DNA of 36,184 nucleotides from assembly GCA_012735275.1 (NCBI GenBank), contig JAAYHR010000001.1:1-36184 (forward strand), written 5' to 3'. The notes beneath the pieces were generated by a model, which saw nothing but the letters and a program-made list of their open reading frames with translations, made no database searches and was not told the origin of the DNA. The position numbers were made by a program, and so were the translations under genes. Origin of the DNA: Erysipelothrix sp. (lineage in GTDB: Bacteria; Bacillota_I; Bacilli_A; Erysipelotrichales; Erysipelotrichaceae). Shown one piece after another: positions 4,731 to 28,527 of this stretch; positions within the stretch are counted from its first letter, which is position 1; each line of letters starts with the position of its first letter.

Positions 4731-5672
4731 TTAAATTTTACCTTTTACATAAATTCGACGATTATTACCTAAGAGACGAACCTCTTTACTAGTCATTCTA
4801 ATTCGCTCCATTAATCTTTTCGCAGCCAAATCATTTACTTCATTACGATTATTAACTGAGTAATATTCTTCAAGCTGAGCCATAGAAAGATTACTAGTAA
4901 AGAAACAAGTTTTATTAGTATCCATACGATAATTTAATATCGATAATAAGATATCATCACGTAGCCAATCAGAGACCCCTTCAGTACCAATATCATCAAG
5001 CACTAAAACATCCACATGTTTTAAACGCGATAATAAGCCATCTAAAGATTCACGACGAGAAATCATATTTTTAAGGTTATTTGATAAAGTTGGTGTATGC
5101 ACAAAAGCCACCTTCTTACCTTGCTTAACGATTTCATTAGTAATCGCTGATAGTAAGTAAGTTTTCCCAACTCCCACATCACCGTAAAGATAGTAGCCTG
5201 TACCATCTAGACGATTTAGATATTCAGAAACTTCTCGCACCACTTTAATGTAGCTTAGATCTTCATCTGGATTGGCAACAATGTCAGCCATCGTTACTGT
5301 CGCTAAGGTCTCAGGAATATCCATAACAATGTAGTTACTTAGTAACTCATCTTTTTGAAGTTGCTTAAGCGTATGGACACATGGTGTAATTACTTTTTGT
5401 AACAAACCATCATAAATTAGATCTTCATAATAACCATTAGCTAATAAACAGTTTTCACTCGACTCACAAGCTGTTTTTAAATCTAACTCTTTAGTCCAAT
5501 CAAAGAATCTTTGAACATTAGCCTTTAAAAAAGTTAAATCCAAATGATTATGCTCTAGAAAATCTAAAACACGCTGATCCTCAGCTAAACGCTGATACAT
5601 CGCTTCACGTTTTTCCATTAGTTCAGGATCAAGTTCAACCTTATTAATTATCATTTGTTCCAAATTGTTCAT
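4731..5672 (-). CDS. dnaI: Primosomal protein DnaI, helicase loader ATPase
   Basis: DnaI is the AAA+ ATPase that loads the replicative helicase at oriC and at restart sites in Bacillota. The 313-residue protein has an N-terminal domain with Cys residues and CVH resembling the DnaI zinc site, then Walker A GDVGVGKT, Walker B VLVLDDIG, sensor-1-like FFTSN and a C-terminal Arg cluster (ERIR). It overlaps the 3' end of dnaB by 29 bases, which suggests translational coupling, and ends the polA-mutM-coaE-dnaB-dnaI cluster. The order matches Bacillus subtilis except that nrdR and other intervening genes are missing. Confidence 0.93.
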   Translation of the reverse strand: MNNLEQMIINKVELDPELMEKREAMYQRLAEDQRVLDFLEHNHLDLTFLKANVQRFFDWTKELDLKTACESSENCLLANGYYEDLIYDGLLQKVITPCVHTLKQLQKDELLSNYIVMDIPETLATVTMADIVANPDEDLSYIKVVREVSEYLNRLDGTGYYLYGDVGVGKTYLLSAITNEIVKQGKKVAFVHTPTLSNNLKNMISRRESLDGLLSRLKHVDVLVLDDIGTEGVSDWLRDDILLSILNYRMDTNKTCFFTSNLSMAQLEEYYSVNNRNEVNDLAAKRLMERIRMTSKEVRLLGNNRRIYVKGKI

Positions 5673-8194: not shown

Positions 8195-10740
8195 TATAGC
8201 GAGTACCAATCTAGCGCAGTAGAACCATCACTTTTTAGTGGGACTTGAAGTTCCATGGCATTTGTCATTTCATATTCAATTATTTCTCGCATAACTTCCA
8301 CCTCTTCATTTAATACATTAAAGATTAATTCGTCATGTACTTGTAGTAACATTTTTGATTTAAGGTTTTTCTCAAGCATACGATCATTAATACGGTTCAT
8401 TGCTACCTTAATTAAGTCAGCTGCGGAACCTTGAATTGGAGCATTCATTGCTGCACGCTTACCAAAGCTCTTAACCATAAAGTTCGATGATTTAATTTCC
8501 GGAATCTCACGACGACGATTTAAGATTGTTGAAACATAACCATTCTCTTCACACTCAGCAATCGTTTCATCCATATATTGCTTAATTTCTGGATAAGTTT
8601 CTAAGTACTTACTAATATATGTTTTGGCTTCACCAACAGTAATACCTAACTGTTCAGATAAACCAAAATCACTAATTCCATAGATAATTCCAAAGTTAAC
8701 TGCTTTTGCCAAATGGCGAGAGTGAGCATCAACCTCTTCAATGCCAAAGACATCACGGGCTGTTTGCTCATGGATATCTAAGTTATTATTAAAGGCGTTA
8801 ATTAGTTTTTCAACATTTGCTAAATGCGCTAATAATCTTAACTCAATTTGCGAGTAGTCATAAGCCATTAAGACTGAACCTTCATCAGCAACAAAAGCTT
8901 TTCTAATTTGACGTGATTCTTCATCACGAACTGATATATTTTGTAAGTTTGGATCAGTTGAAGATAGACGACCTGTTTGCGCAATTGTTTGATTGTAAAT
9001 CGTATGTATTCGCTCATCATCACCAATAAACTTCTGTAAACCTTCAGCATAAGTAGAATATAGTTTTTGATATTTACGTTGTTGCATAATTAAGCCAATA
9101 ATTTCGTGTTGATCTTTTAATTTTTCTAAGACATCAACTGCAGTTGAGCGTTTTTTAATCATTGGTAAACCTAAATCATCAAATAAGACTTCTGATAATT
9201 GCTTAGGAGAGTTGATATTAAATTCTTTATTAGTAATCGCAAAGATTTGTTTTGATAGTTCATCAATTTTGATTTTTGTCTTATCAGCGATATCAACAAT
9301 AATCTTACGATCAACTTTAATCCCCGTTTTCTCCATATCAAAGAGTAATTTCGTTAATGGTAGTTCAACTTCACGGTATAACTTGATCATATCTTTTTCA
9401 ATAATTTCATCTAAGATTGTTTTTGAGAATTTTAATAGTTCAGATGAATTTTGTGCAAGTGTTTCATCACTAACTTCATCATGATCTAATTCAAAAATAC
9501 TTCCACCGTATTTAGTATTGAAACTTGTCCAATCTACAACTAAATTATCAGATAAGAATGCCGCTAACTTTAAATCATCTTTAACGCCCGCAAATGCAAT
9601 CTCTTCATTATCAAATAAGTGATATAACTTCTTAACATCATAGGTTGTCTTAGCAGTGTTTTCATCAGCTAAGTAAGCTAAAAGGTTTTTATCGACTTTA
9701 GCAAATTCAGGATAAATTACTTGAGTAATTTCACCATTTGAGATCGCAATTCGATCTAGACTTTGCTTACCATAGTCACCTTTAGCATTAGCAAAAAAGA
9801 ATGAATCTTCATTTAATAATTTTGGACTAATCTTTTCAACAATTTCAAATTCAAATGTGTTTTCTTCAATATCATCATAAACATATTGTTGCAGTGCATC
9901 AGCTTGTCTTGTCATTTCATATTGACGATAGAAGTTATATAGATTTGGATAGTTAACATCTAATAAGTATGGTTCAATTTCTTGTTCAATTTCAATATCA
10001 GTCTTGATTGTTGCTAATACTTTTGATAATTTCGCAATCTCAACATTGTTTTCAACATTTTCTTTTTGCTTACCTTTTAACTTATCAGTATTAGCTAATA
10101 AATTTTCAAGATTACCATATTCTTTAACTAGTTTTAAGGCAGTGACTTTACCAATCCCTGGGATGCCTGGGATATTATCAGCTGCATCACCTTGCATGGC
10201 TTTTAAGTCTATAATTTGTGATGGTTCAACTTCGTATAGTTCTTTAAAGTTTTCACTTGTGACTTTATCCATTGCCGATGTTCCTTTTTTCATTAGATAT
10301 ACACTAGTTTCAGCATCAACTAACTGCAGCATGTCTTGATCACTTGTTAAGATAATGACTTCATTATCTTTGTTTTGCTTAGCATATGAGCCAATAATAT
10401 CATCTGCTTCAAAACCTTTGATTTCAATTCTTGGATAATTAGCTGCGTCAATTAACTCTCTAACTGTTTCAAACTGTTCAACTAATTCTTCCGGTGCTGA
10501 TGATCGGTGGCCTTTATAATCTTCAAACATGTCATGACGAAAAGTCTTATGACGAGTATCAAAAGCAATAATAATATATTTAGGTTTAAGTTCACTAATA
10601 ACATTTGTTAACATGCTATCAAAAGCAGTTACCGCATTAGTGTACTTTCCATATGATGTTCTTTGGATTCTTCCAAAAGCTGTCGCATAATACGCTCTAA
10701 ATAATAGTGAATTTCCATCTACTAATAAAATTTTATTCAT
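8194..10740 (-). CDS. polA: DNA polymerase I
   Basis: PolA (848 residues) fills repair gaps and removes Okazaki primers. It opens with the 5'-nuclease domain (ILLVDGNSLLFRAYYA; EADDIIGSYA; acidic GDAADNIPGIPGIGKVTA). The middle exonuclease-like domain shows no clear DxE proofreading motif, as in Bacillus Pol I. The polymerase domain has motif A DYSQIELRLLAH, motif B KAVNFGIIYGIS and motif C VHDE (801-804). It begins behind AGGAGG. It heads the polA-mutM-coaE-dnaB-dnaI group and follows a terminator at the end of the lipoprotein gene. Confidence 0.96.
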   Translation of the reverse strand: MNKILLVDGNSLLFRAYYATAFGRIQRTSYGKYTNAVTAFDSMLTNVISELKPKYIIIAFDTRHKTFRHDMFEDYKGHRSSAPEELVEQFETVRELIDAANYPRIEIKGFEADDIIGSYAKQNKDNEVIILTSDQDMLQLVDAETSVYLMKKGTSAMDKVTSENFKELYEVEPSQIIDLKAMQGDAADNIPGIPGIGKVTALKLVKEYGNLENLLANTDKLKGKQKENVENNVEIAKLSKVLATIKTDIEIEQEIEPYLLDVNYPNLYNFYRQYEMTRQADALQQYVYDDIEENTFEFEIVEKISPKLLNEDSFFFANAKGDYGKQSLDRIAISNGEITQVIYPEFAKVDKNLLAYLADENTAKTTYDVKKLYHLFDNEEIAFAGVKDDLKLAAFLSDNLVVDWTSFNTKYGGSIFELDHDEVSDETLAQNSSELLKFSKTILDEIIEKDMIKLYREVELPLTKLLFDMEKTGIKVDRKIIVDIADKTKIKIDELSKQIFAITNKEFNINSPKQLSEVLFDDLGLPMIKKRSTAVDVLEKLKDQHEIIGLIMQQRKYQKLYSTYAEGLQKFIGDDERIHTIYNQTIAQTGRLSSTDPNLQNISVRDEESRQIRKAFVADEGSVLMAYDYSQIELRLLAHLANVEKLINAFNNNLDIHEQTARDVFGIEEVDAHSRHLAKAVNFGIIYGISDFGLSEQLGITVGEAKTYISKYLETYPEIKQYMDETIAECEENGYVSTILNRRREIPEIKSSNFMVKSFGKRAAMNAPIQGSAADLIKVAMNRINDRMLEKNLKSKMLLQVHDELIFNVLNEEVEVMREIIEYEMTNAMELQVPLKSDGSTALDWYSL

Positions 10741-25330: not shown

Positions 25331-25357
25331 AAAACACCAATTAAATTGGTGTTTTTT
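25331..25357. terminator. Bidirectional terminator between rqcH and the DUF349 region
   Basis: AAACACCAATT pairs with AATTGGTGTTT, flanked by T7 on the plus side and by TTTTCTTA on the minus side. It can serve both rqcH and the convergent gene. Confidence 0.85.
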
Positions 25358-25363
25358 TAACAA

Positions 25364-25675
25364 TTATCTCTCTAATTTACTTAATTCGTTGTTTAAACGG
25401 TCAAGTGTATCAAAGTGTTCATTGATTGATTTATTATTATTTGCAATATAACCTTGTAATTCTGAAAGTTCTTTTTCTCTTGCATCATGTTGTTCAGTGT
25501 ATGAATCATGATCCTCAGATGGTAAAGATCTTGACAGAACGCTATCGTATTTAGCAATAATTGTTTCATTTAATAATTCTAATGAGTCAATTTGTGCATT
25601 AACGTTTTCTAATTCTGTTTCGATATCTTCAAGTCTATTTGCAGTACTCACAGTATTTTGTGAATGTAAGTTTTT
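25364..25675 (-). CDS. C-terminal coiled-coil remainder of the DUF349 gene, after an in-frame TAA
   Basis: This is the same reading frame as the DUF349 gene, continuing after the TAA at 25676-25678. The first codons (KNLHSQNTVS) continue the fourth DUF349 helix; the rest is a coiled coil with heptads (LEDIETELENVNAQIDSLE) ending in NELSKLER. A GTG at 25651 could be called a start for a 95-residue protein, but no ribosome binding site precedes it. The simplest reading is the tail of a 443-residue protein cut by a nonsense codon. Separate translation or readthrough cannot be excluded from sequence. Confidence 0.6.
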   Translation of the reverse strand, partial: KNLHSQNTVSTANRLEDIETELENVNAQIDSLELLNETIIAKYDSVLSRSLPSEDHDSYTEQHDAREKELSELQGYIANNNKSINEHFDTLDRLNNELSKLER

Positions 25676-26695
25676 TTAGAATACGTCTCTAGCTCCTTGG
25701 AATGCTGTCCATAGTTGATTATCGTGTTTACGACCACTATATCCTGCTTCTTTCCATTCTTCCATTAACTCTTCCATTGCAACACGAGTTTCTTCGAAGT
25801 TAGTTGAGTCTTTTAATGATTCCGCTCTTTCAACTAAAGCAGTTTTAACATTAAACGCAACTTTTTGACCTTGTCTTAATTCTTCAAAGTGTTCATTTTG
25901 TCTTTGGAAGAAGTTTTGACGAGCTTCATTAAACTCAGCCCATAGAGCGTCATCAGTTCCACGTCCAGCAAAACCAGCTTTTTTCCATTCATCCATTAAA
26001 TTATGCATAATTGATGAAGTTTCTTTCCAGTTTACACTTTCATGATGTTCTTTAGCTTTTTCTACTAATTCAGCTTTAATTTCAGCTGCTTTTTCAATTC
26101 TTGAAACTCTGTTATCAAAGTGTTCTTTACGTTTTTGGAAGAAGTAATCATTTACTTCTTGGAATTTAGCCCATAATTCATCATTATCTGGCTCTCCTGC
26201 CCAACCTGACTCACGCCATTTACTTTGTAAAGATTTATACTTCTCAGCAGTTTTGTTCCAACGAGTTGAATCTTTCATTTCTTCTGCTTGTTGTAATAAG
26301 TCTTTCTTTCTTTCGATTGCTTCATCTATTGCTTCTTTAGATGCTGTATGACGTTCAATCGCTCTTTCGAAACGAGTTTCTAAACGGTCATCAGTTCCAA
26401 CAACATGAATTTGATTCCATTCATCTTGAATTTCTTCAATTTTAACTTCATTATCATCACCTTGTAAGTTAAACACTTCCTGAATTAATTCATTTTTTCT
26501 GTCATCTTGAACTGTATCTAAACTTTCCCAACCAAACTGTCTATTTGATCGATAAGATGGTTGTCTATAAGTTCTTTTTGGTGCAACCTTTTCTTCGCTT
26601 GCTACTTCTTCTGCCACTTCGACAGCTTCAGTTTCAAGACTTTCTACTACTTCAATTTCTTCTGAATTGTTTTCAACAATATCTATCTTATCCAT
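25676..26695 (-). CDS. DUF349 repeat protein, interrupted near its C-terminus
   Basis: This 339-residue frame has an acidic N-terminus (EEIEVVESLETEAVEVAEEV), then four helical DUF349 repeats, each with a W followed by a G-rich turn (KWRESGWAG, EWKKAGFAG, EWKEAGYSG) and a FFQ-type helix (YFFQKRKEHF, NFFQRQNEHF). The fourth repeat stops after DVF at a TAA where the other repeats have Gln, so CAA to TAA is likely. DUF349 function is not well defined. The gene has an extended -10 promoter (TGCTATAAT at 26717-26722) and lies downstream of the damaged surface-protein gene. Confidence 0.8.
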   Translation of the reverse strand: MDKIDIVENNSEEIEVVESLETEAVEVAEEVASEEKVAPKRTYRQPSYRSNRQFGWESLDTVQDDRKNELIQEVFNLQGDDNEVKIEEIQDEWNQIHVVGTDDRLETRFERAIERHTASKEAIDEAIERKKDLLQQAEEMKDSTRWNKTAEKYKSLQSKWRESGWAGEPDNDELWAKFQEVNDYFFQKRKEHFDNRVSRIEKAAEIKAELVEKAKEHHESVNWKETSSIMHNLMDEWKKAGFAGRGTDDALWAEFNEARQNFFQRQNEHFEELRQGQKVAFNVKTALVERAESLKDSTNFEETRVAMEELMEEWKEAGYSGRKHDNQLWTAFQGARDVF

Positions 26696-26796: not shown

Positions 26797-27600
26797 CTAA
26801 TTGAGTTTCTCTTTATATCCAGTCTTAGTTAAAACCCATAATGCAAGAATAATCACTAGAACATAATAGACACTACTATCACCAATTGCTGTATTAGGTG
26901 TTTTTGTTTTATTAACATTATCTACTTTAGATTGTTCTTGATTATCTAACTCTACATTATTTGGATTATCATTAATCGAACCATTATCAACTACAGGCGC
27001 TTCTTCCTTAGGTTTATCTAAATCATTCTTAACTGATTCATAAAGATCAGGATTATCTACTTTAGGCTCTTCTGGAACCTCAGGCTTAACTGGTAACTCT
27101 ACTTCAGGTTCTAAAGGCAATTCTTCTTCTGGTTCAGTTGGTAATTCGGTTTCAGGTTCTACTGGATCAGCAGGGACAATTGGTGTAACTGGAAGCTTGA
27201 TTACCTCTCTATAGGTAATTGTAATATCATCCGCAGAGTTGAAATCAACTATATATTTATAGTCACCTTCTAAAGGTACAAATCCTTCTATGCTTGGTAA
27301 TTCAATTTCTAGATCTGTACCAAATTTACTGCTTACATCAATTGACTCAAGAACCGCACCTTTTTCATCAACAATAGTTATTGTTTTTGAAATTGTATCG
27401 ACTAAAGAGAAATTATAGTTATAAGTAGATTCTTCTAATGGTCCATTTATAACTTCTAGAGTAACCATGTAATTATTATTAAGACTAATATCAATTACCT
27501 GATCAAGAATTGCTGGAATCACTAATTTACCATTAACCAAATATTCTGATTTAAGTTCGCCACTAACTATAATCTCATTAGCAACTTTGTTATTAATAAT
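26797..27600 (-). CDS. Fragment: MucBP-like domain, Pro/Glu spacer and cell-wall anchor
   Basis: This open frame continues the LRR frame after the TAA; it can start only at weak codons such as TTG at 27540 and has no ribosome binding site. It encodes a MucBP-like beta domain, a spacer of alternating Pro, Glu and Val, the TPNTA sorting-like motif, a hydrophobic segment (VYYVLVIILALWVL) and a basic end (KTGYKEKLN). Without a signal peptide it could not reach the wall by itself. Annotation pipelines may list it as a separate hypothetical protein. Confidence 0.55.
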   Translation of the reverse strand: MINNKVANEIIVSGELKSEYLVNGKLVIPAILDQVIDISLNNNYMVTLEVINGPLEESTYNYNFSLVDTISKTITIVDEKGAVLESIDVSSKFGTDLEIELPSIEGFVPLEGDYKYIVDFNSADDITITYREVIKLPVTPIVPADPVEPETELPTEPEEELPLEPEVELPVKPEVPEEPKVDNPDLYESVKNDLDKPKEEAPVVDNGSINDNPNNVELDNQEQSKVDNVNKTKTPNTAIGDSSVYYVLVIILALWVLTKTGYKEKLN

Positions 27601-28254
27601 TTACGAAATAATGATTTGATAATCAACTGCATTTTGAGAATACTTTTGGCTTAATATAGCAAAGATAGATGCATCACTTACGTTAATTGCTTGGCCTAAG
27701 TTTATTAAACCTACATTACCATATATATGTTGATTATCTAAACTTTTGTTAGCTAATGAAAATAAATCATATTCAGCAACACTTAAAGTATCAATATTAT
27801 TTTGAGCAAACATCAAATCAGAATTTGGAAGACTTAGTATTCCATCCGGTAACTGAGTTAAATAAGTTCCATATGCATATACCTGAGCTAAATTATTAAC
27901 AGTTGGTACACTTGGTAATTTAATCCTAGAGTTTGTGAAGTTTACATGTTCTAAGTTTTTTAATTCATAAAAACTTTTAGGCATATTATAAAATTTACCT
28001 TGATTTAATTTGAACCCGCCTAAGTTTAAATACAAGAATTTAAGACCAGGTATCTCATGAAAACGATCAGGAATATCCAACTCCATGTTTTGAGCACCAT
28101 TCAAGTTTAAACTAAATAAATTCTTTAATTCAAAAATCTCTACAGGAAATTTTCTTAGATTTGAGCTAGTCATTGAAAAGTTACTTAAAATTTTTAAAAT
28201 TTTCAATTCCTGCGAGACTAGTAACATTATGTGCAAGCTCGCTTGGGACAACAA
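27601..28254 (-). CDS. Fragment: leucine-rich repeat domain
   Basis: Leucine-rich repeats with spaced L/N/L pattern (ELKNLFSLNLNG, GLKFLYLNLGG, ELKNLEHVNFTN) form the middle of the surface protein. The open frame runs to a TTG/ATG region at 28254, but its first 20 or so residues (LSQASLHIML...) are out of register with the natural protein; genuine sequence resumes near SNFSMTSSN. It ends at TAA 27601-27603, and the next frame carries on in the same phase. Confidence 0.6.
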   Translation of the reverse strand: MLSQASLHIMLLVSQELKILKILSNFSMTSSNLRKFPVEIFELKNLFSLNLNGAQNMELDIPDRFHEIPGLKFLYLNLGGFKLNQGKFYNMPKSFYELKNLEHVNFTNSRIKLPSVPTVNNLAQVYAYGTYLTQLPDGILSLPNSDLMFAQNNIDTLSVAEYDLFSLANKSLDNQHIYGNVGLINLGQAINVSDASIFAILSQKYSQNAVDYQIIIS

Positions 28255-28341
28255 AATAAGTCAAATCATCAATTTGCTTTTGCGATAACGGATCAGTACC
28301 TAGCTTCTTAGCAAATGCTTTTGCCAGATTCTCATCAATTA

Positions 28342-28464
28342 TCAAATCACTAACAGTCTCCTTTCAAGAGAGTTTTCACCGTCAGCTTTCAACACTCCAA
28401 CACTATTAATCGACAGTGTAACTAGTATTAGTAACACTGTAATAAGTTTATTAATTCTATTTAT
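28342..28464 (-). CDS. Fragment: signal peptide of the LRR protein
   Basis: The frame behind AAAGGAGG begins at ATA and encodes a typical Sec signal (NRINKLITVLLILVTLSINSVGVLKA) followed by DGENSLERRLLVI, then TGA. After the deleted base near 28363 the true sequence continues in another frame as ETVSDLIIDENLAKAF. An in-frame ATG 12 codons upstream (28500) has no binding site. Confidence 0.5.
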   Translation of the reverse strand: MNRINKLITVLLILVTLSINSVGVLKADGENSLERRLLVI

Positions 28465-28498
28465 TGTGTTTCCTCCTTTATTTTTCACAACAGACACC

Positions 28499-28527
28499 AT
28501 ATTAGGAAGTACTTGTGAAATATTCAA
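28499..28527 (-). promoter_or_regulatory. Promoter of the LRR surface protein gene
   Basis: On the minus strand TTGAAT (28522-28527) and TAATAT (28499-28504) are separated by 17 bases. It lies about 35 bases before the ATA start region and AAAGGAGG. Confidence 0.5.

Follow-up and report, generated by a model that had tools for sequence, protein, structure and literature searches.

An in-frame TAA at a conserved aromatic position of a DUF349 gene in Erysipelothrix sp.

The window analyzed here, a 36,184-nucleotide stretch of a draft Erysipelothrix sp. genome (G000), carries on its minus strand a DUF349 gene (25364..26695) with an in-frame TAA at codon 340 (25676..25678), and the question is whether this stop reflects a mutation, an error in the sequence or an unusual mode of decoding. 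The in-frame position was confirmed as the first-pass annotation had reported it, and translation through the stop gave the 443-residue product reported there, whereas termination at the stop gives a protein of 339 residues. The frame does stay open past the TAA, for 103 sense codons (25367..25675) rather than the 104 counted earlier, and then closes at a second TAA. The sequence around the stop reads TTC TAA AAA AAC TTA CAT; a run of seven A is present, but two of the seven belong to the TAA itself, such that the feature is a T followed by seven A (25671..25678) and not a TAA followed by seven A. A consensus scan placed a terminator-like hairpin 3′ of the second TAA (25331..25355) and listed zero minus-strand terminator-like sites between the two stops. 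At local base composition, 103 open codons are expected by chance with a probability of ~1e-4, and the remaining two frames of the tail region contain 7 and 18 stops. Moreover, the tail shares 86% and 77% protein identity with its counterparts in two congeners, and a chance open frame was rejected on these grounds, in keeping with the earlier description of the downstream frame as protein-like. We conclude from congener identity, pN/pS, a predicted model and open-frame statistics that the 103 codons encode a conserved, putatively helical tail in which signs of decay are absent.

Both congeners (G001 and G002) have a single uninterrupted gene of the same architecture over the same extent, and the counterpart of the stop codon is a Tyr codon in each, TAC in G001 and TAT in G002. 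An arrangement of two separate genes, which had been named as the finding that would overturn a point change, was therefore rejected for the congeners. A search of relatives covered 60 genomes and found the tail in 3, the window's own among them; within the genus, all three genomes examined have it. For comparison across the family, a 43-row alignment comprised the window, the two congeners, locus L007 and 39 family loci; L132 was omitted because its contig ends within it, and 8 of the 39 loci were fetched for their short frames, such that the proportion of short forms should not be read as a frequency. The stop column is aromatic in 42/42 homologues (33 Phe, 7 Tyr and 2 Trp), and the window alone has a stop there. 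As we read the sequence, Phe also occupies this column in the two internal repeats that come before it in the window protein. The first-pass annotation had proposed a CAA-to-TAA change, with Gln at the aligned position of the other repeats; the point change in one continuous gene survives this comparison, but the Gln ancestor does not, and a Gln-to-stop change was rejected because both congeners have Tyr. We conclude from the alignment that the ancestral codon is Tyr (TAT or TAC) and that the change was Tyr to stop.

One way to restore a long product is for the reading frame to shift, or the transcript to slip, on the run of seven A at the site. Run lengths of 4 to 10 A all still read TAA in frame, however, and both alternative frames close within ~14 codons of the site. 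Slippage therefore cannot bypass the stop, and slippage or programmed frameshifting was rejected, as the sequence excludes either unless two compensating shifts occur; we regard restoration of the long product by this route as extremely improbable. Another way is for TAA to be read as an amino acid. Stop codon usage among 28 listed window genes was TAA in 20, TAG in 7 and TGA in 1, the 28 being what remained of 36 open reading frames (ORFs) after removal of four plus-strand overlaps, the two halves of the DUF349 gene and two pieces of a neighboring gene. Reassignment of TAA was rejected because it terminates 20 of the 28. Functional read-through or recoding at this one site, yielding long and short forms, would account for a frame and a constraint that continue across the stop, and the family holds natural short and long forms alike. 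A recoded stop would be expected to be conserved among orthologues, however, and this one is found in 0 of 42 homologues, with Tyr in two of two congeners. TAA is also the main terminator in the window, and the TTCTAAAAAAAC motif occurs only once in the genome. An ochre-reading tRNA was not found in 60 pieces of G000, a weak test given that only 5 tRNA genes and a tmRNA were recovered there. We consider functional read-through very unlikely, and the same holds for a TAA that is real and kept, such that the tailless protein is the default product and ochre read-through supplies small amounts of the tailed one. If the latter were true, one gene would reproduce the short and long forms seen in the family as separate architectures.

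Two chains could also arise from one message if translation, having produced the 339-residue protein, restarted to make a 95-residue tail fragment. The first in-frame start 3′ of the TAA is a GTG (25649..25651), and position 25651 lies only 24 bases past the stop; moreover, the tail is still under constraint. Nevertheless, the GTG is not preceded by a Shine-Dalgarno-like stretch, which agrees with the earlier statement that no ribosome binding site serves the downstream part, and G001 has another codon in its place. The constraint would be explained equally well by the youth of the stop, and we think a restart unlikely.

Constraint bears directly on the age of the stop. Between G000 and G002, pN/pS was 0.225 for codons 57 to 339 and 0.225 for codons 341 to 443, and the replacements specific to G000 numbered 11 in the 283 codons before the stop and 4 in the 103 after it. 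Synonymous divergence gave a G000 branch of ~0.475. Free decay over the whole branch would be expected to leave ~111 changes in the tail, and decay over one tenth of it ~11, the probability of 4 or fewer under the latter being 0.014; these expectations are rough figures on sites that are partly saturated. Equal constraint on the two sides indicates that the stop is very young, is a consensus error or is translated through. Relative to the uninterrupted congener genes, the TAA is a lesion of putatively disabling effect, as in a pseudogene. Relaxed constraint and further lesions, which also mark pseudogenes, were not found in the tail, where pN/pS is unchanged and the length equals that in both congeners. 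We conclude that the DUF349 gene, if it is a pseudogene, would be at most a very young one.

A 3′ part without any decay would also be expected if one T or C had been misread or mis-merged as A beside the A run, and the wrong base would indeed adjoin that run. The draft assembly is in 63 contigs with a completeness of 84.64%. As a control for such errors, congener proteins were aligned to 61 pieces of G000 (685,398 bases), and the best hit reached 50% identity or more for 237 query ORFs, which together covered 202,114 bases. Stops were read only in the best-scoring piece for each query and were treated as starts or ends when they lay no more than 18 codons from the query start or within the query's last three residues. 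In the covered bases, no conserved gene other than the DUF349 gene, with its TAA, was clearly broken, and none was clearly frameshifted, both of which speak against a consensus error. The remaining stops listed in G000 fell at either end of a query, in an ORF that is probably antisense or in a gene remnant. The probable antisense ORF, in L015 (stops at 9183 and 9210 and a frame break), was set aside by inspection because the query resembles an antisense reading, and the stop at 5131 in L035 was set aside as part of a remnant of ~116 residues. In that remnant (4808-5155), only the last 116 residues can be recognized of a gene whose relative in G001 has 362.

Smaller first rounds of the same comparison were conducted on the congeners. 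For G001 (146 query ORFs), one stop was found, 5′ of a gene start, and for G002 (122 query ORFs), two broken genes were found in addition to stops at query starts. One of the two (L070, contig 23, ~15575), a pyruvate dehydrogenase E2-like gene, is interrupted late in its length, ~169 alignment positions from its end, by an in-frame TAA at a codon that is Lys in G000. The other (L053, contig 6, ~217), which encodes a single-stranded DNA-binding protein, is frameshifted ~217 bases from the contig end, the frameshift being probably a sequence error; both gene names are our own reading of the sequences. Breaks in drafts of this genus thus occur at 0 to 2 per 100 to 240 compared ORFs, and one event needs no special cause. 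The presence of breaks in two genes of the G002 draft, at least one of them probably an error, counts against a real mutation in G000. We conclude that a sole clear break in 202,114 bases excludes a high error rate genome-wide but not a local fault.

A local fault could be reflected in the several breaks that fall within 2.8 kb of the window contig. Just upstream of the DUF349 gene lies a leucine-rich-repeat (LRR) surface-type gene (26797-28500, minus strand), named for weak Pfam LRR matches below the cut-off and, by eye, an anchor-like end on its protein. Its reading passes from frame 1 to frame 0 and back to frame 1, changing at ~28360 and again at ~28190, and a TAA interrupts it in frame at 27603-27601. 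Moreover, ATA stands at the start position expected from a Shine-Dalgarno-like stretch, with an in-frame ATG upstream. Copies of its two long pieces were not found in the two congeners. Judged by its reading frames, the gene thus seems to have been disrupted by a stop and two frameshifts, which would mean either that this stretch is undergoing decay or that its sequence is locally poor. If the neighbor is truly decaying, a real mutation in the DUF349 gene becomes more believable; if the contig is locally poor, an error does. We regard a consensus error as the main rival and give it appreciable weight but stop short of favoring it.

What a real stop would remove was considered from the architecture of the protein. 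The DUF349 profile (PF03993) matched at 157.1 bits against a gathering score of 23.9, placing the protein in the family. The TAA had been placed inside a fourth repeat, but Pfam recognizes three, at residues ~109-164 (26204-26371), 173-245 (25961-26179) and 250-323 (25727-25948), all within the 339-codon upstream part (25679..26695), and codon 340 sits after the third. The structure predicted for the read-through protein (mean pLDDT of 78.0 and pTM of 0.45, from an alignment of two sequences only) is nearly all helix, with residue 340 inside a long helix (322-388) that is followed by another (396-442), and the two may pack as a hairpin. A solved structure of a relative was not found by sequence at E values up to 0.1, and a megablast for a phage copy of the gene was without match.

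Thirteen homologues naturally lack the tail (L133, L136, L138, L144, L146 and L148 to L155), which suggests that a tailless form may work and supports a real mutation. All 13 keep the aromatic residue and end 7 to 10 residues past the stop column, and the 339-residue protein of the window ends 8 to 11 residues earlier than they do. The window truncation is therefore not the same as the natural end, which counts against the nonsense reading. A tail gene downstream of the short forms was not seen by eye in five of the 13, at 400 bases each. In a tree of the part before the stop column, 12 of the 13 formed one supported clade, and the window grouped with tailed proteins. L138 fell outside that clade, with no supported joining; its genus (g2) has this tailless protein in G083 alongside tailed proteins in G003 (L156) and G115 (L157), and the taillessness of L138 is possibly a second loss or a transfer. 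We conclude, as far as these sequences tell, that the tail is dispensable in some lineages and that the lineage of the window has kept it.

With two of two congeners continuous and carrying Tyr, slippage unable to bypass the stop and TAA ending 20 of 28 genes, we favor with moderate confidence the reading that, in this small draft genome, a nonsense mutation of recent origin changed one base of a Tyr codon (TAT or TAC) to give TAA in a DUF349 gene that is normal in other respects. Signs of gene decay elsewhere in the genome, in the neighboring surface-protein gene and the L035 remnant, also support a real mutation. A TAA that is seen directly in the given sequence, is absent from the congeners and is followed by an intact remnant would then be present in the DNA of the living cell. 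By this nonsense mutation, one base change would have turned Tyr codon 340 into TAA, and translation would most likely terminate after codon 339. The 339-residue product would keep the three Pfam repeats, lose the C-terminal helical hairpin and presumably retain some function, and the 3′ part would persist as a remnant in which decay has not yet begun. A new kind of gene decoding is most likely a poorer account than a mutation of recent date or an error in the sequence. As it stands, the finding, a single young nonsense change or a sequence error, is ordinary and of little weight, and it points to the C-terminal hairpin of DUF349 proteins as a losable part. Absence of the hairpin in 13 homologues, a clade of 12 and one further case, offers a simple way to ask what its role is.

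Nonsense alleles of the ordinary kind and young pseudogenes, as they occur in draft genomes, consist of a single point change in one genome with the downstream frame still open, and the window case matches them with no demonstrable difference. The natural short DUF349 proteins resemble the 339-residue form of the window in being without the C-terminal hairpin and differ from it in the aromatic residue that they keep and in their end 7 to 10 residues past the column. MSMEG_2731 of Mycobacterium smegmatis has 454 residues and three DUF349 repeats, and it binds RNA and DNA in vitro as well as ribosomal protein S1 (PMC3348880). Likened to it by that description, the window protein also has three tandem DUF349 repeats; unlike MSMEG_2731, the window copy has a TAA at codon 340.
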